Made by a program: the position numbers and the translations under genes
Source of the DNA: Diphasiastrum complanatum
Taxonomy: Eukaryota > Streptophyta > Lycopodiopsida > Lycopodiales > Lycopodiaceae
Direction of reading: 5' to 3'
Length of the DNA: 64,000 nucleotides
Assembly: GCA_029204225.1 (NCBI GenBank)
Contig: MU832049.1
Coordinates: 25,991 to 89,990, forward strand
Shown here: positions 8,495 through 61,642 of the stretch, in pieces
Numbering within the stretch: position 1 is the first letter of the stretch
Layout of the letters: every line of letters begins with the position of its first letter
The notes under the pieces: model-generated
Told to the model about the DNA's origin: nothing
Databases searched by the model: none
What the model saw: only the letters and a program-made list of their open reading frames with translations

Positions 8495-8677
8495 AAAGCT
8501 GGGTTTCATTGGAAATCAAGAGTAATCACCATACAATGAGAGGAAACTTGAGTGTTTCCTGGAGGCTCCAAAAAGTTTCTATCTTCTCACTATGGAGAAT
8601 GGGAATACATAGTAAAACACACTTCCTTTGCTAAGTTAGGTGAAAATCCAGCATGTAATAAGGAAGTAGACTCCACT
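8495..8677 (+). mobile_element. Penelope-like element fragment (5' coding part)
   Basis: Reverse complement of 24573-24757, the upstream coding part of the PLE at 23.3-24.9 kb. It is in opposite orientation to that copy relative to the shared LTR segment on its left. It encodes the region before the RT fingers, with peptide such as EWEYIVKHTSFAKLGENPAC in one frame. Identification depends on the longer copy. Confidence 0.7.
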
Positions 8678-15349: not shown

Positions 15350-17870
15350 TGGCCTCCTCATCCTCTGAAGACTCTGGCACCAAACAGGTGATCCAGCGTG
15401 ACATCCCCGAGGCCACGTAGATTTGGCCTCTACCCTCTGACACTCTGATCCAACCATAGCTGCAGACAGCCGCCCCCCTCCTTGAAGCAATGGGTTTTTA
15501 CTTGGCGCTCTTCCATTCTGAGATTAACATGGGCCTCACCCTTCACGCTTACGCCACCTGGGACGAGGACAAGGCTCGTTTCCACTTCTTGTACCAAGGT
15601 ACCACGTACAAGGTCAGGATTAAAGCCGACTCGATGTCACCGTTGGCATTATGTCCGGTAATCATCAACTCATCTCCCATCGCCACGCCAAAGCTCTGAT
15701 CAAACCATTCGTCACCCAAACAATACCAGAAATCCCCATCCAGACTAACAATGGTTACTTTATAGAAGCTATCACGGAACCCGTCATTCAGACGGCTACG
15801 CATCTGTTGAATAACTTTTTGGTTATTTCAACATTTTGCAAGGACAGAATTCAGTCTACGCTACTGAGTCAGAAAGTGGAGTCCTTTTTGGAATTCCCTA
15901 ACCCCTCCGTTGTGCCACACAATTGGCATAGCTTCCTTATTTGAGAAGTAACAAACTCCATCAAACCCAACAACCGTGAGCGAATCGCAGCAGGCCCCCT
16001 GTTGTGTAACTTTGCCTACGCACTTCTCGAGGCGAAAGTGCATGGTTTCCAATGCTCATCCCTCCTGTCTACCCTTGTGCCACATACTAACCTTTATTCA
16101 CCATCTCAAGCATCCACCTCATCCCAACCTGCAGTCATTAACACAATGGCCAACAAACAAATGCGTGGCACTGCCTCTACATCCACATCTCCACATGTTA
16201 CCCGAAGACATGTCTCCATTGCCGCACTAACCACTCCATCAATCATCGCCACTTCTTCTTCTGTGCAACCCCCCACTCCAATTTCTGTTTTCGCTACCTC
16301 TCTTCTTGTTCCATCCACATATGTTTCTGTCTCCATCCTCGTTTCTTCTGTTGATACCACTCCTACTTCTCTTCTAGTGTCCACTGCTCCATCCATCACC
16401 ATCGCATCCTCCATCACTCCTGCCACCACCGTTGCTCCTCTCACATTCAATCCTTCTGATTTGCAACTGTCCCCCGACACTCTGGCATGGATGCAAGTTA
16501 TCAATTTTTCACCCCCACGCCAGACACTTTCTGCTCCATCCTCACCTTCTTCCATACTCCACACCACTCTTCAGTTCCCCACTGTTCCTCCCATCCTCTC
16601 GTTCGGACAAACCATCCTCACCCATGTTTCCACAGTTGTTTCTCACACCCCACCCGCTTCGCCAACAAAGGTTGTCGAGGGAAGCCAATCACTGCATGAT
16701 GACGCATTTGTACAATGATTTTTGTAGCATCACCAGATCGGACTGACCCTACCGCCCAGATGGCATCCGAGACAAATGAAAACTTGATCGAAGACAATGA
16801 CGATGGAATTCCACAAGTCGTCGGGGCCGATACAACACAAGCCCCTGCCAGTGCCAGTGTACCAACTGCTCCCACGGATCTAACGACAACGTACCAAACT
16901 CTAGGAAAATACATCCTGGATGCGGTAGCGGCCAAAGCTATTTTGGAAAGCAGGGTACTACAGTTGGCAACGAGTAATACATAGTTGCGAGCAGACCTCA
17001 CCAAGCTGCAGCAAGAGCTGATTCTAGCTCAGCAACACAAACAAGTAGGGCACCAGGAGATTGCCAAGCTGCAGCAGGAGGAGGAGGGCCTAAACAAATA
17101 TATTCAAAGCCTCTCCAAAGCACTGACTGAGGCCTCCACAAAGGTGCGGGAGCTTCAAGTTGAAGCATCCCAACGGCTTGCCCCCATCCAGGCGCAACTT
17201 ACACTTTTGGAAGCAGAGAACACGCCCCTGGGGACAGAGGTCAAAGCTTTACAAGACAAAAAGCTCGTCTGGTTAGCTCAATCTGCACCGAACACAAGGC
17301 CGTTTTTATCGGACAAGTGCAACGCAAGAGCTCGCCCAAGCCAAGCAAGCCCTCAAGGCATTGGAAACGAAGGCCCAGCCCACCCCCGTGGTAATTCCAC
17401 TACCACCTAATTTTGACGCTGCACAGGCTAGTACCAGCCAAGATCAGAGCCAGCAGACAGCAGGGGGATTTCAGCCAGATCAAGGGTCCGAAGGCCAAGA
17501 CCAAGGACAGACAGATGCGGCCACTGAGACGCGAGACCAGAGCCAAGGCGCAACCACTTGCCAAGGCCAAGCAACATCATCCAGAGGATCGCGTACGATA
17601 TCAACCAGCCGGGCCTTCCGAAGACCGAAGTCCATGGAGGAGAACATCAATGAATTTTTATCCAAATATCCCCACGAGTCATCAAGAGGCAGCTGGCAGA
17701 TATCATTCTCAGCTCAGACCATCAAGGGAAAAGAACTGCAAGCCTTACCCGCCCTCCAACCACAACCGGAGTGGCAACAACAGTTATTTGAGAGAGTCAT
17801 TTTTAAACTTAGAGATCACTTTTTAGAGTTGGGTTCAAATTGGGACTCACATGAATCTTGTGACTTCTAA
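15350..17870 (+). pseudogene. Ser/Pro-rich and coiled-coil protein remnant of an LTR element
   Basis: It starts MASSSSEDSGTKQ. Then comes GFYLALFHSEINMGLTLHAY with a YQGTTYKVRIKADSM stretch, a long Ser/Thr/Pro-rich part (16.0-16.7 kb), an acidic Ala/Thr-rich part, a strongly predicted-looking coiled coil (LQQELILAQQHKQVGHQEIA and following, 16.98-17.28 kb) and a Gln-rich tail. No zinc knuckle or enzyme motif. The minus-strand remnant at 2.9-4.97 kb has a similar layout. It is most likely an extra or gag-like protein of a Tat/Athila-type gypsy element, and is interrupted several times. Function unknown. Confidence 0.5.
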
Positions 17871-18410
17871 TGTACTTTTTGTGGACCCTTGGACAAGTTG
17901 GGTCCAAGATGAATGGATAGGATCCTTGTGAATATTAGCCAATAAGATTGAGGGGCAAGGGCCTTCCCCATTTTATAAAAAGGCACCATTTGTGCACTAT
18001 TTCCATGCTTAATGAGAAGGAGGAAACTCTACCATTTTTGGAAGAGAAGCATCCTCATTTGCTATTCACTACCTGCTATTGCTCTTGGTTGTGTTTTCCA
18101 TTGCTTTCTATTTCCATGTTTATTGTTTGCCATAGTGAATGGTTTTCCATTAACAAGCATAAGGAGCATTTGAGCTAACCTCCACCCTCACTCTCTATCT
18201 CTCTCTTTCTCTTCCCTTCTCAATCTCTTCTTCTCCATTCCTTCTCTTCAACCAAAACTATGATGAATGTTAGTGTAGAGGAGTAGAGTAAAAGAGGAGT
18301 AGTATAGTGGTGAGCAGAGTTAAGGGAGAAAGTAGGAAATTAACTAAAAGTAGCATCTATGCATAGTTAGGTACCTATCCAGTGATCTAATCTTTGTTGA
18401 CAGACGGAAG
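17871..18410 (+). promoter_or_regulatory. LTR-like promoter segment
   Basis: Contains GTGGACCCTTGGACAAGTTG, a TATAAAAA at 17974-17981 followed by GGCACC, and a pyrimidine-rich part (18180-18245). It follows the coiled-coil remnant and stops at the copia coding end near 18418. This is consistent with the 3' LTR of the element to its left, but no repeat partner or terminal TG/CA could be fixed. Confidence 0.4.
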
Positions 18411-18417
18411 GGTTATA

Positions 18418-21400
18418 CTACGAAAGATCTTCGACCCCACAAGATCTAAGCTTGACAAATGAATTTTTAGGTAAAGATTTAGTAAACAAATCAGCCAAGC
18501 AACTTGATGATGGCACGTGTTGGAGCTTGATCTCTTTAGCTTGCACTTTTTCCCTCACGAAATGATGAGCAATTTTGATGTGTTTGCTCCTTGCATGGAA
18601 TGTAGGATTAGTTGCAAGTGATTGGGCTGATTTGTTGTCACAATAGATGATAGGGATCTCCTCTTCCATGGCATGAAGCTCCACCAATAGCCTTTTGAGC
18701 CACAAGACCTCCTTGCATGTTGATGTCAAGGCCTTGTATTCGGATTCTGTGGAAGATAGGGAGATGGTATCTTGCATTTTGGAAAGCCATGATACTACTC
18801 CATCACATAGAAAGGTGGCAAAGGCACTTGTTGATCTTGTATCCACTTTGTCACCTGCAAAATTCGAGTCACTATAGGCTCTTAAGCCAAGATTAGTTCC
18901 TCTAAACAAAATGCCAAAATTTTTAGTGGATGAAATGTATCTAAGAACTCTTTTGGCCATCTTCCAATGTGAAACTAGAGGACTTTGCATGAATTGGCTT
19001 AACTTTCCAACACTATAACTAGGATCAGGTCTAGTTATAGTTAAATAGATCAAGGAGCCAATAAGCCTTCTATATAATGTGATGTCCTCAAAGGATGCTT
19101 CATCACAACCAATAGATGCTTTTACATGTTGTTTTATTGGTGTCTCAATGCCTTTACAATTCTTCATTCCAAATCTATCGAGGATGGATGTAGCATATTT
19201 AGATTGACAAATGAAGCTAAAATCACATCCTCTAATAACCTCTGTTACAAGAATGAAGCTAAATAGGCCGAGATCTACCATCTTAAACTCTTTTGCTAAA
19301 GCAATTTTTACATCTCTAATTCCATCTAGATCATTACCACTCAAAATAATGTCATCTACATACAAAACAAGAATAATGATCATGCCATCATGAAAACTTA
19401 TATACAATGATGGATCATAAGCACTCATTACAAAATTGATGGAAATGAGAAAAGAGTTTAGCCTAGAGTACCATGCTCTAGGTGCTTGCTTGAGCCCATA
19501 AAGGCTCTTCTTCAAAAAACACACCTTTCCTTCATGCTTTGCCTTGATGAAGCCCTCGGGTTTCCTCATGTAGATCTCTTCCTCCAAATAACCATTGAGG
19601 AATGCATTTGTGAAGTCAAGTTGGAATAGCTCCCAATTGAAGGTTGTAGCAAGACTAATGATCAGCATGATAGTAACAAGCTTAGCCATAGGAGCAAAAG
19701 TCTCATCATAATCAATGCCTTTGGTTTGTAAAAAACCTTTGGCAACAAGCCTAGCTTTATGCTTGCTTATTGATCCATCTTGATTATACTTCAATCTAAA
19801 TACCCACTTGCAATCAAGAGGTTTCTTCCCTTGAGGAAGATCCACAAGATCCCAAGTATGATTCTCAATAAGAGCATCATACTCTACTTGCATAGCATCC
19901 ATCCAGCTTTTAGACTTACAAGCATCTTCATAGCATGTTGGCTCATCTAACATTCAAGTAAGAAAGGTGTAAGATGTGAAAGATGATGAGCCTTCCCTTT
20001 GATCACCTTGACCATCATAGGTGAGCCTCAATGGCTCGGATCTTGCCCTTGTAGATCTTCTTGGAGTTCTTGGAGTTCTTAGAGTTATTGCATCTTGAGG
20101 TGGATCCTCAAGTTCTTCTTCACTTGGAAGCTCCTCCTCCATCCTAGCATGATCCTTGGCATCAAGGTGATTAGTAGCATTATCATCCAATCACAAGCAT
20201 GTCCTTCATAAAAAATAACATCCCTACTCACTATCACATTGCTAGTGATGGGATTGAAGACTCTATAACCTTTGCTATTCTCACCATATCCCACAAAGAT
20301 GCCTTTGATGGATGTTGCATCATCCTTCCTTCTCTTATCCAAGGATTGGTGTACATAGCAAGTGGATCCAGAAACTTTGAGATCCTTGAGATTGGGCTTC
20401 TCTCCAAATAGAGCTTCAAATGGTGTGATTCCTCCAATGGCTTGGTTTGGCAATCTATTGCACAAGTAGTTAGCACAAGTTATTGCTTCATCCCAAAATG
20501 GTTTGGATAGAGAAGCATCTAGCCTTAAGGCCTTAGCACACTCACAAAGAGATCTATTTCTTCTCTCACTCACTCCATTTTGTTGAGGGGTGTATGGACA
20601 TGACAACTCCCTCTTTATGCCATTAGAACTACAAAAGTCAATCAACTTATTGGAGATATATTCACCTCCATTATCACTCCTTAATACCTTAATCTTGGTA
20701 CTAAGTTGATTTTCTACCAAAGTCTTGAACTTTACAAAAGAATCAAACATTATTGATTTGCTAGACAAGAGGTACATCCAACAAAATCTAGAATAGTCAT
20801 CAATGAAGATTACATAGTACTTGGCACCACCATTAGACTCATGTGAAAAACTTTGAACATCCGAATGGATGAGTTCAAGAGGAGAATTTGATCTTGATGT
20901 AGATCTTGAGAAGGGTAGTTTGTGAGCCTTTGAGAGGCTGCATGCTTCACATCTCTTCCCACACTTTGACAAATGCTTGGGGAGTCCAACTGCAAGCTCC
21001 TTTGTAGCCATAGATTCCATGGCTTTGTAGTTGGGGTGGCCCAACCTTTTGTGCCACAGTTCCACCTTTGATAGCTCCACCTTTGCCAAGTTAACACTCT
21101 CCACTGCAATATTAGCATCAAGCTTAAACAATCTACCTTGCTTAAAGCCTTTGGCTATACATTCATCATTTCTAAGGATGGAACAAACTCCATGCTTAAA
21201 TTGTACATCTAGGCCATTATCCATTAACTGGCCAACACTAAGCAAATTCCTGGTTAACTTAGGAACATAAAGAACATTATCTAGATTCATCCTTTTGGAT
21301 GATCCCACATACAAGGAAATTGTTCCCACTCCACTTATCTTACATTCTTGACTACTTGCAGTATAGATTGATCTATGTAAGTCATTGTAAGAAAGTAAGG

Positions 21401-23062
21401 TGGAGAATATGTCCTTTTGATATGTCATGTGAGAACTTGCCCCACTATCAATCCACCAAGAATCATTGGTGTTGCTCTTGGATGATGGTGGTTTGTTGGA
21501 AACCATCAAGGATGACTCTTCATCCTCCTCTTCCTCCTGATGTGCAATGTCACTTTGGTTGCTCTTTTGTGCCTTTTTCTTCTTGAGACATTCTGATGCA
21601 AAATGTCCTTTCTTTCCACAGAAAAAACATTTGTACTTGGACTTGTCTTTGATCTTGCCCTTTGAGCTTGAAGCCTCATCCTCCTCCTTGGTCTCCTTGA
21701 AGTGCTTCTTCTTGCCATTGGTCTTCTTCTTGCCTTTGAATGAGAAATTAGCTTTCTCATCACCATCCTGCAGAGAAATAGCATTCATTCTTGCATTGCT
21801 ATGCATCATCCTACACTCTTCAACCACTAATACACTGTGTAGCTTTTCTATAGTAGGCAAAGTGTCTTGGATTGCAAAGCTTTGGACCAAATTTGTAAAG
21901 CCACTCCCTAGACCATTGAGGACAATCTGAACAAGCTCACTATCTTGAATCTTCTCTCCAATGGAAGCTAACTCCCTATTGAGAGACTTGATTCTTAGCA
22001 CATAATCCTGTGCACTCTCATCACTCCTCTTCATGCTTTGTAGAATCTGATTCCTAAGCATGAGAACCCTCGAAGTGTTACTAGACTCATAAGTAGATTT
22101 TAAAGATTCCCAAGCCTCTTTAGCACTCTTACATGATGATACTTCCCTTAAAAGATCATTGCTTCCCAAGCCTCTTTAGCACTCTTACATGATGATACTT
22201 TCCTTAAAATATCATTGCTTACATTCATCTTAATACAGTGAAGTGCAAGCCTAGACCTCTTCTTGTATCTCACTAATTCCTGTGCACCTAGAGGTTCATC
22301 TTCATCATCTATTAGAAACTCAAAGATCCTGGAGCACCATTAGTGACTCCATTCTCACTTTTCAAATAGCATAATTGGTAGAATTTACCCTCTCACTAGC
22401 TTCTAGAACGTAGGCTCCCACTGATCCCATCTTACTAGCAAGATTCTACACCCAAGATATAGATTTGTTTGAACCTGAAACTCACAAAGGTTTCTAACTT
22501 GCAGTGTTTCACTCAAATGTTGACTTCTATTCCAACAGATGGATTTGTAATCACAGTTCTATCACTCCCTCACAAAGCTGGAATGAAGATAAGATGAGAT
22601 GAAAACTACTCTCAAGCAAATCTTGCCAATCTTGGCTATTCTTGGACAAAAACTGACTCTATCTCTCTCATTCACTTTGATGTACTTTCAAGACCTAGTT
22701 TCCACTTTAAGAAGGTATGAAATTAGCCTAGATTAATTAGTTCTCATGAAACAAATTCAAAACTAATCAATGGCAAGTGATCTTGGTAGCTTATCCTAGA
22801 ATTTGCACCAAAAATTACATCAAACTGACACCAGATGAATTTTATATGATCCAACGAATATGCATTATTAAATGCTGGTTCAGAGATGCCCACATGTGTG
22901 AACAGTACGCATTTTGATCCTGAAAAAGTTTGGGATCAAATTCTCTCACCAAAACTTGGATACCAGCTCGACCTTTAAATACTAGTTTTTTGCACCAAAA
23001 CCTGCTAAAACTGGATTAGATTCAGACACTGATCAATGGCCTTGTACTTGGCTCTGATACCA
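18418..23062 (-). mobile_element. Ty1/copia element, gag-pol, broken
   Basis: On the minus strand from the primer site (reverse complement of GCTCTGATACCA, 23051-23062): gag, a zinc knuckle (CFFCGKKGHFASEC), protease (DSGASSHMT), the pre-integrase block (LWHKRLGHPNYKAM), integrase (HSDV..., LRSDNGGEY, PQQNGVSERRNR), reverse transcriptase (CKWVFRLK, LDFTNAFLNG, LYVDDIILSG) and RNase H (AYSDSNFAGD, SSTESEY). Integrase before RT defines copia. Two long open stretches cover most of it with few breaks, so it is fairly recent. The 3' LTR is not seen; the coding end meets LTR-like sequence of another element. Confidence 0.92.
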
Positions 23063-23274
23063 TGTGAGAAGTACAATACTAAGGACCATAAATGGATCTT
23101 TGAATGATCCACAAGGTGATTGTATGCTTGTTAAACAATCTATCAGAAACTAGTCATCAGAAAACAAGATCTAGTTTAGTAGCTTGATAGGAAACAAGTA
23201 GAGACAATCAAAGCATTGCTCCACACGTGTGGAAATAAGGCTGTAGTACGGCCTGTAGACATGTTTACATAGTG
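23063..23274 (-). repeat. Copia 5' LTR, partial
   Basis: Begins TGTGAGAAG immediately after the primer site (in plus coordinates), i.e. the LTR's 3' end in element orientation. It includes CACACGTGTG (23222-23231). The match with 8304-8494 ends at GTTTACATAGTG, where PLE sequence starts, so only about 212 bp of this LTR are present. Confidence 0.8.
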
Positions 23275-24938
23275 CCATAATATGTAGACAAATTACTGAG
23301 ACAAAAACAAAATACAAAATACTAGAAACAAAGCCGACTCCTTAGCTCCCCTCTTTTCTGGACTCTATTATTAATCATCTTAAACATACCAAAAGATGAA
23401 ATACCAAAGATAAAACCAATAGTCTAAAATAGTTCAAACTTTTCTCATGATTTTCTTAAATAAGTAATCCTTATGGAGTAACAAAATGCTTAGATTGCTT
23501 AATTAGTCAACAAAAGCATCTCTACTAGTACAAAGATAAGAAAACATGTAGAATCGAGAAGAGACCTCTCCATTTTTAACATAATCTGAAATATCAGAAA
23601 AATATGAGGCATGCGAATTATGTTCAAGTTATTGCATTTTGGCTGCAACCTTTTGTCAACAATATTAACCAATAAACCTGACTTAGCCTAGCTTATAGAA
23701 AGGTCTAAAATCCTGCACTTATCAGCACTAGTTGTACAATTAAGTTCACACGAGTCTTTAGGATAGATTCCTCTACCAAAAACGTTAGGGTCTTTATATA
23801 GAAAGCTACCAAAATCACGAAGATCGGGAACAAATAAGTCATCAATATATCTTCTAACATGAGTTAATTTATGCAATAAGATGGGACAAGTACCACAAGA
23901 AACTAATCTTTGTATAATTTCAAATTCATAAGAGAAAAAATAAAAGTTAGTTAAGCTGAACAACACAATTAGTACCCATGGAAATACCTATCGTTTGTTT
24001 GAAAAAGCGAATCACCTAGAGAAATATGCAAATTATCCAAGAGAAAGTGCAACCAGGAACACACATCTTCAACATCAACTATTTTAGTAAATTTTTTCTT
24101 CTTTGAATAAAGAGGTGGACGGAATTTAGTGCCTTCAGAAAAGGATTGTTTCAAAAATGATGAAAGATTGATGTATTGTAGTAACAATATGACTTGAAGA
24201 AGATTCACAAAACTGCGAAAAAAAAAGGAGTCACCACAAGAACAAGGGCTATTAAGAATAGACATTTTTTTCTAATATGAAAGATTCCGACCAATATCAA
24301 TATAATTAAAGGCTTTTTGTCCTATAGTGTTAACATATTTCCAAGCAACAACTGGATAATTCCAAAAAAAATATCGCACAAGGAGAAAGAGCATTCATAA
24401 CTATAGGCTTTCTAAAAACAAAACTCAAACTAATTTTGTCAAGATCAGGTGAAGTAAAAATTGTGATGAGTAGATCTTTACTAGTTGTAAAAAGTCTAGT
24501 TTTAAGATTAGCTTTAAAATTTATAAAGCAACTTAAAAGATGTGAGAAATTGTCAAAGAATTGGCAAATCTTAGTGGAGTCTACTTCCTTATTACATGCT
24601 GGATTTTCACCTAACTTAGCAAAGGAAGTGTGTTTTACTATGTATTCCCATTCTCCATAGTGAGAAGATAGAAACTTTTTGGAGCCTCAAGGAGAAACTC
24701 GAGTTTCCTCTCATTGTATGGTGATTACTCTTGATTTCCAATGAAACCCAGCTTTCAACATTGGGTCTACCCAAGAGAATCTGGATTTTTTCGAAATCCA
24801 ATTAGCAACTTATGTTTCGGTACTGATGAGACATAAGCAATGTTGTTTGGCTAAGATTTTTTTGTTTACTGAATTCTATATTTTGGTTTTGATTTAGTTC
24901 CTTTGACTTTTTGGGTTTCTTGTATATTATTTCTAGTT
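23275..24938 (-). mobile_element. Penelope-like retroelement (PLE), degenerate
   Basis: Minus-strand peptides match the PLE reverse transcriptase in order. An N-terminal region (TKICQFFDNFSHLL) is at about 24.57 kb. CSCGDSFFFR and SEGTKFRP follow, matching the usual cysteine and GPKFR-type block. Next are DVCSWLHFLLDNLHISLGD, QTIGISMGTNC, FYFFSYEFEIIQRL, then RYIDDL with the catalytic YIDD at about 23.84 kb, and IYPKDSCELN...RILDLSIS. A thumb-like FSYLCTSRDAFVD lies near 23.53 kb. This order and wording are distinctive for PLEs, not LINEs or LTR elements. No GIY-YIG endonuclease is visible, and only about 165 bp remain after the thumb. Several frame interruptions. Confidence 0.85.
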
Positions 24939-25989
<1,051 letters not shown>

Positions 25990-30152: not shown

Positions 30153-30777
30153 TCAGTATAAGGGACTGTAGTCTGACTGAAGCATTTCAAAAAAGGCAAT
30201 GGTATCTCCCTCTGGTCTCATAGTAGACTGGGCATCTGAATAAAAAGTGCTCCTCAGACTCCACCTCAAACAGAGAACATATCTAGGAAATCCTCTCCTC
30301 TCGTGGGGTACCTTGAAAACGTCCAATCTTAATCTCAAGCTAATGTGATGAGACTCATAACTGACCAAGTGTGAATCTCAGACCATGGGATAATTCTGAG
30401 TCTAAACAGTGTGGTAGAATTGGGGTCTCCACTGCATCCATCTCCAAGAAATGAGTTCGGTAATAGTTGGGTTTGACCCCTAATTGGCCCCACCATGTAC
30501 GAAGATATGCTCTATAGAGAAAATGCCTGATATAGTCGTGGGTGCTCGAGGGGAGGTCCATGATAGAGATGTCGAGGGTATCAAGTAAACGTGATGCCTG
30601 TGAAACATGATAAGCGATAGTCCAGACTATGAAGGTGTTGAGATGATGTGTCCACCGCCTGTGTGTATCTCAGTGCATGCATGACAAGAAATTTGAGCGT
30701 TGTATATATCTGATGAGATGAAAGATGACATCAAGTTGTAGAGGTGGGATTGCAAACTTTGCTAGGATACTGGTGCG
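30153..30777 (-). pseudogene. Unrecognised coding remnant cut by a copia insertion
   Basis: On the minus strand a continuous frame from the LTR edge reads KFLVMHALRYTHRRWTHHLN, VWTIAYHVSQASRLLDTLDI, then DLPSSTHDYIRHFLYRAYL and TWWGQLGVKPNYYRTHFLEM. A neighbouring frame continues (LDVFKVPHERRGFPRYVL). The Trp/Tyr/His/Arg-rich, protein-like wording over more than 150 codons is unlike the AT-rich spacers, so I think it was once coding, either a host gene or a DNA-transposon protein. I cannot name a family. It ends exactly at the copia LTR (30778). Confidence 0.4.
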
Positions 30778-31460
30778 TGTTAAAAATTCACAATTCTAGC
30801 TTGACTAGTTTTGGTCATATGACTTGTAAATAGTTAGATGGTCATGATGTGGCTTGTCACACGTGCCAAATAGCATAGGATTCCATTCATAAGGATGTTC
30901 TCAAGTAGACCTAAGTGTTAGAACCTTTGGAATGAGTCCAAATTATGCTTAGATACAAGGGAGAAAAAATAGGAGCTATTTTTGGTAATTTTTGCATTGT
31001 TGAGGGATCTCCAAGATTCCAACCCTAGCTTGGTAGGGATGAAAGATCCACCAAAATTAGCATTAGGGATAGGTTTAGGGCTACTCATACCTGCCCAAAA
31101 CTGTGATGGATCATGTATATATAGGTGATGATATCTCACCAAAATCTATCAAGCAATTTTATGTTTTTTTCTCTCATAATGGTGCAATTGCTCTCTATGT
31201 TCATAATTGTTTGAGTACTTGTGATTACTAATGATTATAGGAGTGAATGTAGGTCTGGTGTACAGTACTCAGACTGTGGGAGGCCGTACTTTCACATGTG
31301 TGAAGCCTTCTTCAAGGATTTGGGCCATTTAGTGAGGTTCAAGCATAGATTTTTGATGGATTTTGATGGTTCAACTTGTGCTAATCTTATGAAATCATAA
31401 TCTATTGTTTCCCTCATCATTTCAAGTGTTTTAGGATCCTTATTTGCTGTAATTTTTACA
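30778..31460 (+). repeat. Copia 5' LTR, 683 bp
   Basis: Begins TGTTAAAAATTC and ends TTTTTACA directly before the primer site. Contains a TATA-like TATATATAG at 31115-31123 and CACATGTGTG near 31294. The bases before it belong to the unrecognised minus-strand remnant. Confidence 0.95.
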
Positions 31461-32271: not shown

Positions 32272-35200
32272 ATGGCATCTATAAATGCTTATCTTTTGGA
32301 TACTAATGAAAGGCTCAACAAAACTAACTATTCCATATGGAAAGTTAGAATGGAATCTATCATGATCATGCAAGATCTGATGGAAATTGTAAATGGTAAG
32401 GAGGGTGAACCTATTCATCCTCAAGAAAAAGCCAAATACATCAAGAGGTGCAATGTTGCACTACATTGCATAAAAATGAATGTTGCAAATGAACTCTTAA
32501 GAGAGGTAGGAGATTGCACTTCAGCTCAAGATGCTTGGGAGACTTTGCAAAAGGTCTATGAATCCAAGAACCAAACTAGAATGTTAGCTTTGAAGAATCA
32601 AATCTATAGAAGCTATCAAAAGAAAGGAGAGAGTGCACATACTTTTGTCCTAAGAGTAAAGGAATTGAACAAAGAGCTAGCCTTTATAGGTGACCCTATC
32701 AAGGATGAAGAGCTTGTTCAACTCATATTGAATGGACTAAGCTTTGAATTTGACAATTTGGTTCAGGGATATGCAATTATGGGTAAGCTACCCATACTTG
32801 AAGAACTCCAAGGCACACTCATGGCCGAGGAATCAAGAAGGAGCCAAATGCAAGAGAGGATGGATAGGCTTTCCATCCAAGGTGGATATGACCAAGCTCT
32901 CTTCACCAAAGGCAAAGGCAAGTCCAAAGGCAAAGGATCAACATTCAAGAAGTCTACAAAGCTTGAGGATCAAGAAGGACCCCCAAAGGCATCTCCATCA
33001 ACCACCAAAGTCAAGAAGGACAAATCAAAGGTGAAGTGCTACTATTGTAGCAAGATGGGGCATTATGCCTCGGAATGCTTCAAGAGGAAGCAAGATCAAA
33101 GCCAAGCCAACATGAGCAAAGAGGAGGAGGAGGAGAGTTCACATGAGGACTCTCTCATGATGTCCATATTTTCTTCAACAAGCTTCAAAGGAGAAGATCC
33201 TTGGTGGATTGACTCGGGTGCTAGTTCACACATGACTAGTAAAAGGGAGTTTTTCTCTTCTCTCTTATCTTATGATGGACCTATAAAGTCTATCTATACA
33301 GCAAATGATGAAGCTTGTAAGATTGAAGGAGTTGGTAGCATTCCCCTTTGCTTAGGATCTTCCAAAAAGATCAACATAGAAGGTGTTTTGTACATTCCTA
33401 CAATAACAAAGAATCTACTAAGTGTTGGCCAAATGGTAGACAATGGTTTCAATGTTGACTTTGCTTCAAATGAATGTTTCATCAAGAAGAAGGGTAAGAT
33501 AGTGGCTAAGGGCACTAGACTTGGCAAACTTTATAAGCTGGATGCATTTGTGGATACTAATGTTGTCATGTTGGCTGAGAAGAGCAAGATATCTACCTTT
33601 ACTTTATGGCACAAAAGACTTGGACATGTCAACTCGGGTTCCATGGAGGCTATGATCAAGGAGGAGTATGCTTTAGGCCTACCAAGGTCTATTGGGAAGG
33701 AAGACAAGGTTTGTGAAGCTTGTGCCTTATCCAAGGCACATAAGAAGGTGTTTCCTAACTCCATCACAAAGTCATCTCATCCTCTTGAACTCATACACTC
33801 GGATGTGCACATTGCTAGCACCAAATCTAATGGAGGTTCATCCATGTTTTTAACCTTCAATGATGACTACTCAAGATATTGTTGGGTGTTCTTACTTTCC
33901 TCCAGTTCTCAAGTATTTGATACTTTTGTAAAGTTCAAGTTGTTTGTGGAAAAGCATCATAATCATAGCATCAAGATTCTTAGAAGTGACAATGGTGGAG
34001 AATTCATCTCCAATGAGTTCAAGGCCTTTTGTGAGGAGGAAGGGATCAAGAAAGAGACTTCTTGTCCTTACACTCCTCAACAAAATGGAGTTTCTGAAAG
34101 AAGGAATAGAACATTATGTGAATGTTCTAAGGCTTTAAGATTAGATGCTTGTTTGCCCAAATCCTTTTGGGGTGAGTCTCTTGTATGTGCAAACTACTTG
34201 ATGAATAGGGTGTCTTGCAAAGCAATTGAAGACAAAACTCCTTATGAGATGTTGTATGGAAAGAAACCCAATATTAATCACTTGAAAGTTTTTGGGTGTA
34301 TATGTTATGTGCATGTGCCATTGGAAACAAGAACCAAGGAGGATCCATCTTCCACAAGAGGGATCATGCTTGGATATGCAAGCTCAAGCAAGGGCTACAA
34401 AGTCTATCTCCCATCCTTGAACAAATTTGTTGTTTCAAGGGATGTCATCTTTGATGAACATCATATGCATATGCTTGAAGAAGGCTCAAGTGCTCCAACA
34501 ATCAAGAAGAAGATGGCCGAGGAGCAAGATCTTGGTTTTGAGGAGGAGCTCATGGAGGAGCAAGCACCAAACCTACCTATCACACCAAGGAGATCTTCAA
34601 GGGCAAAAGTGGAGCCATCAAGGCTCACATATCAAGGCAAAGGACAGCAAGTTGAGGGTATCTCATCCACTTCTTATGCTTTATCTAGTTTTGAAGAACG
34701 GTCTAATGTTGAAGATGCATTGAGCTCCAAAGAATGGTATAAAGCTATGTTGGATGAGTATGATGCCTTGATTGAGAATGAAACTTGGTTGCTTGTTGAG
34801 AGACCTCAAAGGAATGTAATAGGATGCAAGTGGGTCTTCAAGCTTAAGTTGAATGCAAATGGGAGTGTTAACAAACATAAAGCAAGATTAGTTGCAAAAG
34901 GTTATGCTCAAGAGAGAGGGATAGACTATGAGGAAACTTTTGCACCCGTGGCCAAGATGGTCACAATAAGACTAATCATTGCACTTGCATCACATTTTGG
35001 ATGGATTCTATGTCAAATGGATGTCTCTAATGCTTTCTTGAATGGTTTTTTGGAAGAAGATATCTATATGGAGCAGCCACAAGGGTTCATCAAGCATGGA
35101 ATGGAGAACAAAATATGCCATCTCCAAAGAAGCATCTATGGCTTGAAGCAAGCCTCGAGATCTTGGAATTCAAGACTACATTGCTATCTTATTTCACTTT

Positions 35201-36240
35201 CTTTTGTTCAAAGTGAATATGATCCCACTCTTTACATTAAGTTTGATGATGTTGGTATTGTACTTTTACTCATTTATGTAGATGACATCATCATTAGTGG
35301 AAATAGTGTTGATGGTATTGAAAAAATCAAGATAGATCTATCCTTAGAGTTCAAGATGGTAGATCTAGGGTGTTTTCACTTCATCTTAGGCATAGAAGTA
35401 CTTAGAGGGTCTGATTTTATCTTTATAAGTCAAGTAAACTATGCTCAAAGTCTTTTGAAGAAGTTTAAGATGGAAGTATGCAAAAGTGTTGACACACCAA
35501 TGGAGCAAGATGTAAAAGTGCCAAATGAAGGTGATGAAAGATCCTTCATGGACATCACTTTGTTTAGGCAACTTATAGGTTCCTTAATGTGGATCACTAT
35601 AACTAGACCAGATATTAGCATTAGTGTATGTAGGTTGAGCCAATCCATGCAAAAGCCATTGAATATCCATTGGAAAAAGGCTAAGAGGATTCTAAGATAC
35701 ATCTCGGGTACATTGGATTTTGGGATTCTATATAGAGGAGATGTGATTAACCTTCATGCATTTAGTGATTCAGATTTTGCAGGGGACAAGAGGGATAGGA
35801 AATCAACAAGTGCCTATTCAACTTTCATAGGAGAAGGTGTGGTTTCATGGCTTTCAAAAAAGCAAGAAACTATATCTCTATCTTCAACCGAGGCCGAGTA
35901 CAAAGCTTTGACAACCACTACAAAGGAGGTACTTTGGATCAAGAGATTATTGGTGGAACTAAAGATCATGGATTCAGAGGAGGAACCAATCATCTACAAT
36001 GACAATATATCAGCCCAACACCTTGCATCTAACCCAATCTTCCATGCAAGATCTAAGCACATTGAGATATGCCATCACTTTGTGAGAGAAATGGTGCAAG
36101 CCAAGGAGATTGCTTTGGAGCATGTTCCAAGCAATGAATGTGTAGCTGATCTACTTACTAAACCACTTCAAAAGACACCTTTTATGAAGTTCAGATCATC
36201 ACTTGGAGTGATTAGTAAAGCAATGATTGAACCAAGCTAG
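32272..36240 (+). CDS. Copia Gag-Pol polyprotein, 1,322 aa
   Basis: One uninterrupted frame. Residues about 15-200 form a UBN2-type copia gag (NYSIWKVRMES, AWETLQKVYESKN, FVLRVKELNKELAFIGDPI). A CCHC knuckle is at 256-269 (CYYCSKMGHYASEC). The protease active site DSGASSHM starts at 314 and the pre-integrase block LWHKRLGH at about 445. The integrase triad is D511, D573 and E609 (D-x35-E spacing between the last two). Reverse transcriptase starts at about 848 (CKWVFKLK) with YVDD at 1002-1005, and RNase H at about 1164 (FSDSDFAGD) with SSTEAEY. The product would be cleaved by its own protease in cytoplasmic particles. Lineage within copia not assigned. Confidence 0.95.
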   Translation: MASINAYLLDTNERLNKTNYSIWKVRMESIMIMQDLMEIVNGKEGEPIHPQEKAKYIKRCNVALHCIKMNVANELLREVGDCTSAQDAWETLQKVYESKNQTRMLALKNQIYRSYQKKGESAHTFVLRVKELNKELAFIGDPIKDEELVQLILNGLSFEFDNLVQGYAIMGKLPILEELQGTLMAEESRRSQMQERMDRLSIQGGYDQALFTKGKGKSKGKGSTFKKSTKLEDQEGPPKASPSTTKVKKDKSKVKCYYCSKMGHYASECFKRKQDQSQANMSKEEEEESSHEDSLMMSIFSSTSFKGEDPWWIDSGASSHMTSKREFFSSLLSYDGPIKSIYTANDEACKIEGVGSIPLCLGSSKKINIEGVLYIPTITKNLLSVGQMVDNGFNVDFASNECFIKKKGKIVAKGTRLGKLYKLDAFVDTNVVMLAEKSKISTFTLWHKRLGHVNSGSMEAMIKEEYALGLPRSIGKEDKVCEACALSKAHKKVFPNSITKSSHPLELIHSDVHIASTKSNGGSSMFLTFNDDYSRYCWVFLLSSSSQVFDTFVKFKLFVEKHHNHSIKILRSDNGGEFISNEFKAFCEEEGIKKETSCPYTPQQNGVSERRNRTLCECSKALRLDACLPKSFWGESLVCANYLMNRVSCKAIEDKTPYEMLYGKKPNINHLKVFGCICYVHVPLETRTKEDPSSTRGIMLGYASSSKGYKVYLPSLNKFVVSRDVIFDEHHMHMLEEGSSAPTIKKKMAEEQDLGFEEELMEEQAPNLPITPRRSSRAKVEPSRLTYQGKGQQVEGISSTSYALSSFEERSNVEDALSSKEWYKAMLDEYDALIENETWLLVERPQRNVIGCKWVFKLKLNANGSVNKHKARLVAKGYAQERGIDYEETFAPVAKMVTIRLIIALASHFGWILCQMDVSNAFLNGFLEEDIYMEQPQGFIKHGMENKICHLQRSIYGLKQASRSWNSRLHCYLISLSFVQSEYDPTLYIKFDDVGIVLLLIYVDDIIISGNSVDGIEKIKIDLSLEFKMVDLGCFHFILGIEVLRGSDFIFISQVNYAQSLLKKFKMEVCKSVDTPMEQDVKVPNEGDERSFMDITLFRQLIGSLMWITITRPDISISVCRLSQSMQKPLNIHWKKAKRILRYISGTLDFGILYRGDVINLHAFSDSDFAGDKRDRKSTSAYSTFIGEGVVSWLSKKQETISLSSTEAEYKALTTTTKEVLWIKRLLVELKIMDSEEEPIIYNDNISAQHLASNPIFHARSKHIEICHHFVREMVQAKEIALEHVPSNECVADLLTKPLQKTPFMKFRSSLGVISKAMIEPS

Positions 36241-36243
36241 ATA

Positions 36244-36254
36244 GTGAGGAGGAG
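36244..36254 (+). other. Polypurine tract
   Basis: GTGAGGAGGAG lies between the gag-pol stop codon and the 3' LTR start, the expected plus-strand DNA primer. The related GGAGGAG at 201-207 and CTCCTCCTC at 8952 occupy the same place in other copies. Confidence 0.85.
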
Positions 36255-36529
36255 TGTTAAAAATTCACAATTCTAGCTTGACTAGTTTTGGTCATATGAC
36301 TTGTAAATAGTTAGATGGTCATGATGTGGCTTGTCACACATGCCAAATAGCATAGGATTCCATTCATAAGGATATTCTCAAGTAGACCTAAGTGTTAAAA
36401 CCTTTGGAATGAGTCCAAATTATGCTTAGATACAAGGGAGAAAAAATAGGAGCTATTTTTGGTAATTTTTGCATTGTTGAGGGATCTCCAAGATTCCAAC
36501 CCTAACTTGGTAGGGATGAAAGATCCACT
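36255..36529 (+). repeat. Copia 3' LTR, first 275 bp
   Basis: Matches 30778-31052 with four differences. Beyond this point the sequence no longer follows the 5' LTR in direct orientation. Confidence 0.93.
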
Positions 36530-41423
<4,894 letters not shown>

Positions 41424-52706: not shown

Positions 52707-53201
52707 AAGATAGGCACTATGGATGCCATCTTCAATGATAGGGAGATAGATTCAATTAAACAAGATAGATTGTATAAGATATGATCACAACTAGCTATCC
52801 CACTCTCTTTGGGACTTGAGATGAATCATTCTCTGATTTCTCAACAAGATCTAAGATGATCTTGAGTTTGATCAATCTTCAAGATCCAAACTTAGCTCAA
52901 TTTACTATAGATTTGATCAAAACTAGTCTCCTCCTTGATCTCAACTTCACAAGAAGGGTGAATCCACCTATACTGAACCAAAAGCACTTTAGAGCACACA
53001 AATGTCTCACAAATAAATCCCTCTAAATTCAGATTGAATCACATTTACATATTCAATCACAAACCTATTCAAAATCGAGTAGAAAAGAAACAAAATTTTC
53101 ACTAGTTTTGCATTTCTAGATGAAGAAAACATCAAAACACTTGATCTGAACCTAAAAGGTGTATTTTATGACCTTAAGAAGCCTAAGAACGACCTAATTA
53201 A

Positions 53202-54031
53202 TGTGGAAAAAGTATAAAAAGGACCAAGAGTGGATCCTAATCTGATCCTCAAGAGGGATTGGTTGTCAGATTACTTGATCTATCAATCTACTTCATATTA
53301 AGATCAATCTAGATCAATTCTAGACACAAAATCCTAACAAGAACAATCATTAATTGAAGGTAAGTGTACTTTATGGTTTCACACGTGTGAAACACTGTTT
53401 GAGTATGGACTCCAACCTGAAAATCAAGTACACATTGATAGAATCTCAAAACAATCAAAACAAATGTAGACAAATGGAGAGAATCACTCAAAATTGCTTC
53501 CAAAACCAAGATTGGTGTCTCACATTGATTATGGCCAAATGTGGCTCTATATATACAATAAGTGGGATCTCGTGGTACTGATCATCCCTTTGATCCCACA
53601 TGTGTGAAGGTGCTTTGTCATATGATGATTCATCATGCAAAACTGACACTTGGACAAAACCTTCTATTTTGAGCACTTTTGGCCCATTTTCCTTCTATAT
53701 GGAGATCTACTTGAAAATCTTCTAGAAGTCAAAATTCGTCTACTTCAGCTTATTCCACACATGTGAGCTGTCCTCTACATGGGATGTGACACCTAACCAA
53801 AGGATGTGCCTCATGCAAGCAATAGACTGATGCCATGTGTCATATGTCTAGAAAACTAGTTTTTGGCCTTTTTAGCCACTAGAACTTGAATTAAATCATA
53901 TGTACAACCTATATGATTATGGTACATGACAAGTACACTATTTTCACACGTGGAAACAGGCTCCACACATGTGTGTTTATCTATATACAAGATTTTTGGC
54001 CTCTACCAAGCTTATTTTTGTATTTTTCACA
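53202..54031 (-). repeat. Solo LTR (830 bp) with target duplication
   Basis: Begins TGTGGAAAAAG, ends TTTTTCACA, and is flanked by the 5-bp direct repeat ATTAA at 53197-53201 and 54032-54036. A second copy of the same LTR is at 58562-59394. It contains CACACGTGTG (53380-53389), several CACATGTG-type variants, and a TATATATA-like box near 53550. It lies in the untranslated leader of the surrounding copia element, so it inserted later and lost its internal region by LTR-LTR recombination. Confidence 0.93.
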
Positions 54032-56476: not shown

Positions 56477-57445
<969 letters not shown>

Positions 57446-57620
57446 GAAATAGTATACAAGAAATCCAAAAAGTCAAAGGAACTAAATCAAAACAAAAATA
57501 TAGAATTCAAAAAACAAAAAATCTTAGCCAAACAACATTGCTTATGTCTCATCCGTATCCAAGCATAAGTTACTAACTGGATTTCGAAAAAAGATTTTCT
57601 TGGGTAGACCCAATGTTGAC
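57446..57620 (+). mobile_element. PLE 5' fragment, inverted
   Basis: Reverse complement of about 24755-24935, so it is head-to-head with the PLE copy starting at 57708. It ends at the same internal PLE point (around 24757) at which the fragment at 8495 begins. Confidence 0.75.
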
Positions 57621-57707
57621 TAAGAAGGAAACGACAATCATTAAGAAGAAATAAAAGATAATAATAATGATAATAATTAAAATAAAATAAAAGAAAATTA
57701 ACATGGA
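57621..57707. other. AT-rich junction between inverted PLE parts
   Basis: Mostly A, T and G in AATAATGATAATAATTAAAA style. It could be a junction filler or a degraded tail. Confidence 0.6.
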
Positions 57708-58561
57708 CCATAATATGCAGATGAATTACCAAGACAAAGACAAAATACAAAATACTAGAAACAAAGCCTACTCCTTAGCTCCCCACTTTTTTTGGACTCT
57801 ATTATTAATCATCTTAAACATACCAAAAGATGAGATTGCTTAACTGGTCTACAAAAGCATCTTTACTAGTACAAAGATAAGAAAACCTATAGAATCGAAA
57901 GGAGACCTCTCCATAATTTAACATAATCTAAAATATTAGAAAAAATTTGAGGCATGCGAATTATGTTTAAGTTATTGTATTATGGCTGCAACCTTTTGTC
58001 AACAATATTAACCAATAAACCTGACTTAGCCTAGCAATAAGATGGGACAAGTACCACAAGAAACTAATCTTTGTATAATTTCAAATTTATAAGAGAAAAA
58101 AATAAAAGTTAGCTAGATGAACAACACAATTAGTACCCATGGAAATACCTATCGTTTGTTTGAAAAAGTGAATCACCTAGAGAAATATGCAAATTATCCA
58201 AGAGAGTGCAACCAGGAACACATATCTTCAACATCAACTATTTTAGTAAATGTTTTTCTTCTTTGAATAAAGAGGTGGACGAAATTTAGTGCATTCAGAA
58301 AAGGACTTTTTCAAAAATCGATGAGGAAGGATTGCTGTATTAGTAGTAATATGACTTGAAGGAGGTCACAAAACTTCAAAAAAAAAAAGGAGTCACTAGA
58401 AGAACCAAGGGCTTAAGAATAGACAATTTTTTCTAATATGAAAGATTCCGACCAATATCAATATAATTAAAGGCTTACTAGCGGTAAAAAGTCTAGTTTT
58501 AAAGATTAGCTTTGGAATTTATAAAGCAACTCAAAGATGTGAGAAATTGTCAAAGAATTGG
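57708..58561 (-). mobile_element. Second PLE copy, shorter
   Basis: Matches 23275 to about 24557 in the same orientation, starting at the same base (CCATAATATG), but lacks about 185 bp containing the YIDD region and some upstream sequence. It is cut on its right by the LTR at 58562. It retains the QTIGISMGTNC-like, TSRDAFVD-like and cysteine-block regions in decayed form. Confidence 0.8.
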
Positions 58562-59394
58562 TGTGCAAAAAGTACAAAAAGGACCAAGAGTGGATCCTAA
58601 TCTGATCCTCAAGAGAGATTGGTTGTCAGATCACTTGATCTATCAATCTACTTTAGATTAAGATCAATCTAGATCAATTCTAGACACAAAATCCTAACAA
58701 GAACAATCATTAATTGAAGGTAACCTGTACTTTATGGTTTCACACGTGTGAAACACTGTCTGAGTACGGACTCCAACCTGAAAATCAAATACACATTGAT
58801 AGAATTCAAAACAATAAAAAAAAAATGTAGACAAATGGAGAGAATCACTCAAAATTACTTCCAAAAGCAAGATTGGTGTCTCACATTGATTATGGCCAAA
58901 TGTGGCTCTATATATACAATAAGTGGGAGCTCGTGGTACTGATCATCCCTCTGATCCCACATGTGTGAAGGTGCCTTTGTCATATAATGATTCATCATGC
59001 AAAATTGACACTTGGAAAAAACCTTCTATTTTGAGCACTTTTGGTCCATTTTCCTTCTATATGGAGATCTACTTGAAATCTTCTAGAAGTCAAAATTTGC
59101 CTACTTCAGCTTATTCCACACATGTGAGGTGTCCTCTACACATGTGATATGACACCTAACCAAAGGATGTGGCTCATGCAATTAATAGATTGATGCCATG
59201 TGACATATGTCTAGAAAACTAGTTTTTGGCCTTTTTAGCCACTAGAACTTGAATTAAATCATATGTACAACCTATATGATTATGGTACATGACAAGTACA
59301 CTATTTTCACACGTGGGAACAGGCTCCACACATTTGTAATCATCCTATATACATGATTTTTGGCCTCTACCAAACTTATTTTTGCATTTTTCAC
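58562..59394 (-). repeat. 3' LTR (833 bp), same family as the solo LTR at 53202
   Basis: Begins TGTGCAAAAAG and ends TTTTTCACA, followed on the right by CTCCTCAAAAATC, which reads as a polypurine tract on the minus strand. It is nearly colinear with 53202-54031, sharing the palindrome (58741-58750) and TATATATA box. It inserted into the PLE copy; the preceding 5 bp are ATTGG. Confidence 0.9.
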
Positions 59395-60907
59395 ACTCCT
59401 CAAAAATCTAGCTTGGTAAATCTAGCTTGATGGAAAACATGATGATCTTGAACTTGACTCCATGGGTTGAATTGGTCTTTGCTGGTTCAAAAGGTGTGAT
59501 GATCAGCCAATGAGCTTGATGTTGATCTGAAATCACCATATCCATGATAGTGCTTCTTTGATGTTGACATCTTTGATGACTTGAGAGCTTTGCAACATCT
59601 TCATGTAGATGCTTGACTTTGAGGCTTGCTCCTTCTTCATGTGCATGCTCCTCCATGAGAAATAAGATTTCTCTTTTTTATTTATTAGGATCACAAAGAT
59701 CTAACATCATGTTACTACGATCTAGAGAATTAGTCTCATCCAAATTGGCAAGACTATGCATGCTATAATAACAAAGTGTTTGCAATATATCTTCATGCTT
59801 GTTTACCATCCTAATCTCAGATCCAATGAGGCTAAATACTTCATTATGGAGATAAGTGTCTTTAGAAGATGACTCACTTACTCTCATAAAGAGTTTACAA
59901 TTTGCCTCAATACAAATTTCAAATTATTAGGGAAACAAATCACTTTTGCTCTTGCATGACTCAAGAGCATACATTTGATGAAATAACCATTTGCTTTTGA
60001 ATTGATTTAAAATCAATTTCAATCTTTTAAGAACATCATCTATGTTCTCAAGAGAGACTTCATACTCAACTAGTATGGCTTTACTCCAATTTTGAGATGC
60101 AATGATCTCACTAAAGCAAATTGATTTATCAAATGACATAAGAGAAGTAAGTATGAGATGTATACCACATGAGATATGCTCCTCTTTCCCTTGAAATGTG
60201 AGCCACATGGATTCAACCATATTTCTTGAGTTTATTTTTGGAATCACAATTTGAGAAGGTCTCTCCTCCTCAATCGTTGGCACACTTGAACCTTGAGAAG
60301 GATTCTCCTCCTCAATCCTTGGCACATTTGAACCTTGAGATGACTCCTTAAGATCCTCTTCATGGTGCTCCTTTTTGGTGGAAATCTGAGACCTCCATGT
60401 CTCATAATGATCACAACAAGTATGACCATTCAATATGCACTTCCTATGATTATCAAGATTACTTATTCTAGAAACATAAGTCCAAAAATCACACAACTTG
60501 GCATGATTTTTCCAATATTGAAATCAAAAGGTATTTCCATCTCAATAAGGCTAACTACTTGCTTATGGATATAAGTGTCCACTTTGGATGCCTCATTATT
60601 CTCATAAGAAGTTTACAACTTGCCTTTAAGATTGAAAACTTACAATTTTCATCTTTATGAATGAACACATCATTCATGATCTTATTGAAACCAAAAGATC
60701 CTACATTATGAAGGTATTTCCATTTCCTTGACTTCATAACTAATGTAAGCTTACAAGGAAAACATATTTTGCTATCTTTTAAGGTATCACACTCAACTAG
60801 CATTTCCTTAAGCCACCTTGAGATACAAAAAATCCCTTCAAAGCAAAATGATCTTCATAAGTTGAATGAGAGCATAAATGAAACTATTTTCATTTGTGAT
60901 TGATGCT
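59395..60907 (-). mobile_element. LTR-element internal region with duplicated unknown module
   Basis: Polypurine tract at its left edge, no recognisable protease, integrase or catalytic RT box. Two related peptide modules lie on the minus strand: one with ICFSEIIASQNWSKAILVEY and, further, KWLFHQ (about 60150-59940), the other with CFEGIFCISRWLKEMLVECD (about 60850-60800). Each is followed by a CKL(L/F)MR stretch. The underlying DNA is also duplicated (about 59819-60155 against 60538-60890). The wording faintly recalls the start of copia RT (NxW..AM..EY..L). An acidic/Pro repeat (SQGSNVPRIEEENP) occurs twice between them. Broken; cut at 60908 by another LTR. Confidence 0.55.
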
Positions 60908-61642
60908 TGTTGATTTCACACGTGTGGACTGTCCACAACATGTACTTGTGATCTCCTAAGGTGTGTAGATGCACCAAGATCAAGACTAGATTGAGATTCA
61001 AGATCTATCTTTGATTCTATGGCAAAAACACACTACTACATGCATTCAATCACTTCCAACTCTCACTCACACATGTGGAAGTATTAAAAAATTATTCTAA
61101 GTAAAAACAAGCTGCTCTCCTCGAGTAGAGAGAGAAAAATCATCATGAGCTCTCGGGTAGAGAGAGAAAGCTAGAAATCCAATAACACTCAAAATCCACA
61201 CAATCACCAAATCAATTAGCTTCAAAATGAGGAGTACAATGATACTAGTAGATCCACGAGCTACCACTATGCTTAACTATGATTGGACCACAGTTTGTCA
61301 CCTCTTAATCCTATTGGACCATTGATCCATGCACCTCTTAATTCTATTGGACTATATTCAAGCACACCTCAAATTCCTATTGAACCTCACATGGTTCCAC
61401 CTTTAAATCCTATTGGACCTCTTAGAATTCATCAAACAAAAGCATTACACTTGTCTACACTCTAATTGGCACGAGTTTAGCCTCTTACTCTATTTTGGCT
61501 CAGTAGTGGCATTACAAGTGGAAATGCCATAATTTGCCATCTATGCCAATTTGTTCCTATCAACATCCTACACCTAGATGCTTGATGTAAAAACATAAGG
61601 ACCCCTATATCTAACATAGATAATCTTTTTCAATTCTTCACA
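60908..61642 (-). repeat. Copia 3' LTR (735 bp), same family as 208-944
   Basis: Begins TGTTGATTTCACAC and ends AATTCTTCACA next to the polypurine tract. It contains CACACGTGTG (60917-60926), CACACATGTGG near 61069 and the CCTCTTAATCCTATTGGACC subrepeat array (61283-61440). It is inserted into the element to its left; adjacent 5 bp are ATGCT, and the partner duplication would lie beyond the window. Confidence 0.9.

Follow-up and report, generated by a model that had tools for sequence, protein, structure and literature searches.

Remains of a Penelope-Like Element, Probably of the N-Terminal-Nuclease Type, in a Window of Plant DNA

The stretch of DNA analysed here, called the window, comprises 64,000 nucleotides of contig MU832049.1. 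The initial annotation, made from the letters alone, described the interval 23275-24938 as a Penelope-like element (PLE). No mobile elements stand closer to telomerase than PLEs. By homology and by the predicted models of related proteins, the interval holds the remains of a PLE reverse transcriptase (RT). Very probably it is a dead copy, in a fern or a plant allied to ferns, of a PLE of the type carrying a GIY-YIG nuclease at the N-terminus (the Naiad/Chlamys order); this assignment was made by architecture and not by phylogeny.

The Locus and Its Repeat Units

The main copy of the element, unit R, is a 5′-truncated and internally deleted PLE coding region on the minus strand (23264-24564), delimited by tblastn with the related proteins P0001 and P0005 and by self-BLAST. 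Read on the minus strand, it begins with a pre-RT coding piece (24375-24539) that matches residues 81-135 of P0005 with 54.5% identity, followed by the CxC region, from NSPCSCGDS to GTKFR (24119-24364), which matches P0005 139-221 with 48.8% identity and contains one internal stop. At 24104-24118 lies a join in place of residues 26-323 of P0001, which was found by tblastn and is identical in the second copy of R. Beyond the join come the RT piece ahead of motif B (23999-24103; P0001 324-358, 77% identity), the motif B′ piece, FKQTIGISMGTNC (23953-24003; P0001 357-373, 76% identity), with a frame change on both sides, and motif C (RYIDDL) with the next blocks (23691-23954, within the match to P0001 373-581). 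The C-terminal or thumb part (23331-23687), located by tblastn, has stops and frame changes. Over 23954-23331 the match to P0001 by tblastn is 43% identical. The names B′ and C, like motifs 1, 2 and A below, are those we take to fit the pieces of the window and of P0001. The coding frame ends near 23331, as in P0001, and about 56 bp further a piece resembling a long terminal repeat (LTR) begins (23062-23275, minus strand, self-BLAST), which adjoins the 3′ end of R and is not part of the PLE. It is succeeded by TGGTATCAGAGCC (23050-23062) and then by a copia element (18443-22432); a second LTR was looked for at 17600-18500 and none was found.

Two non-coding repeats on the plus strand, S2 (24573-24755) and S1 (24755-24939), stand head to head with R at the main locus, with about 9 bp between. 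S2 has an inverted copy at 8495-8677 (97.8% identity; minus strand), which lies beside a copia-type LTR piece and has no RT by self-BLAST and tblastn. The inverted copy of S1 (57439-57619, 90.3% identity; minus strand, self-BLAST) has the sense opposite to that at the main locus. Neither S2 nor S1 (24573-24938) gave a tblastn match to the 125 related proteins described below. Hence the annotated interval stands for its RT part, and its remaining ~370 bp (24573-24938) are non-coding S2 and S1.

A second copy of R lies on the minus strand at 57698-58561 (self-BLAST, tblastn) and has suffered further deletions, including that of motif C. The 579 tblastn matches of the relatives are all on the minus strand and confined to two places, 23-24 kb and 57-58 kb; therefore two RT-bearing copies are present. 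The count of at least four PLE pieces in the window given earlier shrinks to these two (23264-24564 and 57698-58561), the pieces at 8495 and 57446 being non-coding repeats. Realigned block by block, the R copies gave three blocks of 89-94% identity and a fourth of 81%, a figure lowered by a deletion; the 82% that self-BLAST gave for the block at 23392-23692 is lowered in the same way, the deletion having been aligned across. At the second locus S1 comes after the 3′ end of R, with about 80 bp of AT-rich DNA between. We infer that S1 and S2 each represent the 3′ terminus of a PLE fragment lying in reverse. They are inverted relative to R at the main locus, and S1 is oppositely placed at the second; with the element ends so taken, this would fit the direct or inverse repeats with 5′ truncation typical of PLEs. 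Both R copies start at the identical base (CCAATTCTTTG; 24564 and 58561) despite differing upstream neighbours, and this start may be a true 5′ end or a coincidence. The start of the second copy abuts a repeat resembling a solo LTR. This repeat (58556-59395) forms a 94% pair with 53196-54031; the latter has a 5-bp direct flank, ATTAA, while the one abutting the 5′ end of the second R copy has none.

Reverse Transcriptase Identity

All five peptides from which the PLE had been recognized were located between 23506 and 24271 on the minus strand, over three frames and in the order given for them. Frame reads of the window place GTKFRP in 23972-24271, QTIGISMGTNC in 23950-24015, RYIDDL and CELNCTTSADKC...LDLS in 23691-23987, and FSYLCTSRD in 23506-23628, the last in a frame different from that of the neighbouring C-terminal part. 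The relatives comprised 125 proteins, P0001-P0125, searched at a tblastn threshold of E ≤ 0.01. P0001 matched the window with E 4e-61 and a best piece of 174 bits; when the window was shuffled 100 times with dinucleotides preserved, its best piece was 27.7 bits, which puts the peptides far above chance.

Fold comparison was made on the predicted models of P0001 and P0091, the window copy itself being deleted. Among the 50 solved structures listed for the RT of P0001, ranks 1-17 are telomerases, as are ranks 1-16 among those listed for P0091, where the nuclease part of the model is of low confidence and the fold claim is confined to the RT. Telomerase alignments to the P0001 model span 352-505 residues, and the best rows for R2, diversity-generating retroelements (DGR) and group II introns span 240-327. 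In both models the telomerase likeness extends into the region preceding the fingers, covering part of it. Searched by sequence, none of the joined window query, P0001 and P0091 had a match in the PDB. Taken together, homology to the relatives and the telomerase-like predicted fold bear out the PLE RT proposed in the initial annotation.

Relatives and Host

The sole named relative among the matches listed is P0009, from the fern Ceratopteris richardii. A tree was built from 121 rows (123 were aligned, two too short were dropped, and P0005-P0008 had been left out beforehand); it holds the family found here alone, without the named PLE clades. The two window copies pair with a Shimodaira-Hasegawa-like approximate likelihood ratio (SH-aLRT) support of 100, and a separate clade of 100 sequences has a support of 99. 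This clade, drawn from P0010-P0125, consists of related RTs in JGI, NCBI and ENA contigs of up to 347 kb. A pattern search for DNA of the relatives gave 4 and 119 matches in viral contigs and 57 in prokaryote genome contigs, none of which was confirmed by tblastn. The PLE had also been taken as a clue to the lineage of the host, with conifers as the best-known parallel; the clue points toward ferns rather than conifers, as the tree and P0009 favour a fern or allied plant, without proof.

A Shared Defect

Both R copies are without the 298 residues matching P0001 26-323 and have 15 bp instead, between GTKFR and KKKKFTKIVD. In P0001 the missing stretch contains motifs 1 and 2, an insertion, and FDFTTLYTKLD, the region of catalytic motif A. 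The second copy has lesions of its own: about 162 bp are lost (24316-24477 of the main copy), as are the motif C stretch (about 23693-23873 of the main copy) and, close to the end, roughly 90 bp more. Differences between the copies over the BLAST blocks are spread over the codon positions as 20/212, 21/212 and 23/212. The shared deletion and this even divergence indicate that the copies stem from an already defective ancestor. As far as the sequence can tell, this common ancestor was unable to make a working RT, yet it was copied, and neither window copy is able to move alone. The earlier view that the family was active here thus survives for copying, two copies having come from one defective ancestor, and lapses for the activity of an intact element.

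The intact element would nick host DNA with its nuclease, and its telomerase-like RT would copy the element RNA onto the free DNA end, a process expected often to yield 5′-truncated and inverted partial copies. A defective ancestor could have been copied in trans, an intact relative providing the machinery. Nothing common to the two loci was found apart from R and S1, so that such movement is the most economical interpretation, and the data suggest a non-autonomous PLE. In its wider form we offer the idea tentatively, at rather below an even chance: a non-autonomous PLE family in ferns, no longer possessing the nuclease or half of the RT, would depend for its copying in trans on telomerase-like relatives that are intact, as a PLE counterpart of the short interspersed nuclear element (SINE) and miniature inverted-repeat transposable element (MITE) parasites, and would be marked by a fixed 5′ end at CCAATTCTTTG and the internal deletion. 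It speaks against such movement that the copies are only two and that neither a target-site duplication nor a flank pattern common to them indicates separate insertions.

Instead, the R copies might represent one insertion in a larger duplicated block, later broken by LTR elements, with no movement in trans. We hold this to be a real possibility at rather below an even chance. A duplication would account for the 5′ end being identical to the base (24564 and 58561) and for the identical internal deletion, and both S1 near each R copy and the nesting of LTR elements at the two loci fit it as well. Nevertheless, self-BLAST reveals nothing common to the loci beyond R and S1, and S1 differs between them both in its orientation and in the side of R on which it lies.

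Architecture and the Group of PLE

The relatives supply what the window copies have lost. P0091 (938 aa, a EukProt transcript) and P0121 (966 aa) are end-to-end homologues with 30% identity (E 2e-119). The N-terminus of P0091 is a GIY-YIG domain by Pfam, with 3.7e-5 when tested alone, above the curated cut-off; in the whole protein it gave 3.4e-4, slightly below that cut-off. Both proteins carry CxC, GHVxT and GTKFR in turn, all ahead of the RT. The window keeps NSPCSCGDS, with CSC as its CxC (in 23972-24271), and GTKFR; in the relatives the CxC takes the forms CCC, CPC, CQC and CAC. No C-terminal nuclease was found in the window pieces, where the frame ends soon after the RT. The P0001 model has helices at 193-253, between the strands of motif 2 and motif A, a region deleted in the window. 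Rfam gave no match at gathering score in the window, and hence no hammerhead ribozyme, a weak result as the copies are truncated.

Naiad/Chlamys PLEs have an insertion in the RT fingers domain, which the helices of P0001 may represent, and are not known to carry a hammerhead ribozyme. Chlamys hosts are green algae, spike mosses and slime molds. For the Naiad/Chlamys PLEs, Craig et al. in 2021 reportedly gave the order as N-terminal GIY-YIG, CxC and RT. An excerpt of a paper on Ectocarpus cites Craig et al. 2021 and names the "Chlamys group of PLEs" (PMC12477816). The Naiad/Chlamys order is indicated by a CxC region that precedes the RT, by a GIY-YIG at the N-terminus of full-length relatives and by a frame that stops shortly after the RT.

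Several observations weigh against this assignment or the evidence beneath it. In the structure comparison, less than one Z unit separates R2 from the lowest-scoring telomerases. Used as RT detectors, Pfam and NCBIfam named none in the window pieces tested or the fern-like proteins (P0001-P0009 with Pfam); in the wider family the Pfam RVT_1 matches are weak (0.053 for P0116 and 0.0043 for P0103). The GIY-YIG match of P0121 is also weak (0.01, Pfam). The 14-row group joining the window copies to the Ceratopteris clade has an SH-aLRT support of 85, under the mark of 95. Finally, the window is without the nuclease region, its pieces giving no detectable nuclease match with Pfam, and none was seen in the fern proteins P0001-P0009, all of which are partial with their starts missing.

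This last absence also fits a nuclease-free PLE (EN-minus, that is, without an endonuclease) tied to chromosome ends; such PLEs occur in Selaginella and conifers according to the portions of two papers dealing with them (PMC9033089, PMC12477314). We regard this reading as improbable, in that the full-length family members P0091 and, on a weak match, P0121 carry a nuclease together with the same CxC region, and ordinary LTR elements surround the window copies. Ferns may have lost the nuclease, the starts of the fern proteins being missing. A Dryad-like PLE of the Penelope/Poseidon group, with a C-terminal nuclease and nick-primed reverse transcription, as in conifers after transfer from arthropods, is very improbable. 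Among the nuclease-bearing PLEs of land plants Dryad is the best known, and PMC9033089 assigns it to the Penelope/Poseidon group; an excerpt of PMC11167929 places the nuclease of that clade at the C-terminus. Against this, the CxC region is ahead of the RT in the window and its relatives, the nuclease of P0091 is N-terminal, and in P0001 as in the window little follows the RT, Dryad being compared by description only; on these grounds the parallel with conifer Dryad drawn earlier is set aside. An RT of long interspersed nuclear element (LINE), group II intron or DGR type, with its own mechanism of movement, is hardly credible, for telomerases hold ranks 1-17 for P0001 with longer alignments, P0091 behaves alike, and we know of no GIY-YIG N-terminal to the RT in the layouts of these classes.

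Neighbouring Repeats

Elsewhere in the window, a copia gag-pol open reading frame (ORF) at 32272-36240 encodes 1322 aa with no stop. In a search that scored the 7992 candidates sharing most words, its matches were 28-43% identical (best 120 of 182 matches), the named ones being mostly from angiosperms, with some from insects and fungi. Judged on sequence, these low identities fit a host far from the well-sequenced angiosperms. A direct pair (30777-31051 and 36254-36528, 98.5% identical) surrounds the intact ORF, and just outside it lies a perfect inverted match of 138 bp (31072-31209 and 36687-36824). The microsatellites (TC)38 and (GA)93 border the right 138-bp copy (36687-36824), which looks as though it had been flipped between these opposed repeats. 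Positions 123-944 and 60908-61723 are 92.8% identical over about 820 bp in inverted orientation.

Significance and Comparison with Known Systems

Reports of PLEs in land plants, as far as the excerpts of PMC9033089 and PMC12477314 go, concern Dryad and nuclease-free PLEs in conifers and PLEs in spike moss. No report of a fern PLE was found in the literature searched, the key 2021 paper lying outside that search, and "Penelope" occurs 0 times in the main texts (supplements excluded) of the Ceratopteris, Alsophila and Brainea genome papers. If true, a fern lineage with an N-terminal-nuclease PLE would bear on whether these elements descended vertically from algae, and a subfamily with one shared internal deletion would be a natural test of whether PLE machinery copies other RNAs in trans.

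The relatives share with Naiad/Chlamys PLEs the order of GIY-YIG (clear in P0091, weak in P0121), CxC and telomerase-like RT, and the window shares with them the lack of a hammerhead match and has putative inverted partial copies. In contrast, the nearest named relative here is a fern, Chlamys being found also in Ectocarpus (PMC12477816), and the window copies are without the nuclease and half of the RT. Telomerase is similar in the predicted RT fold of P0001 and P0091, whereas identity in the structure alignments is 9-14% and the RT here is part of a repeated mobile element. The nuclease-free PLEs of Selaginella and conifers likewise bring a PLE RT to seed-free plants and conifers, but they have no member with a nuclease, while in the present family full-length relatives do carry it. 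Dryad, too, is a PLE in a land plant; it differs in its C-terminal nuclease and, to our knowledge, in having no CxC linker.
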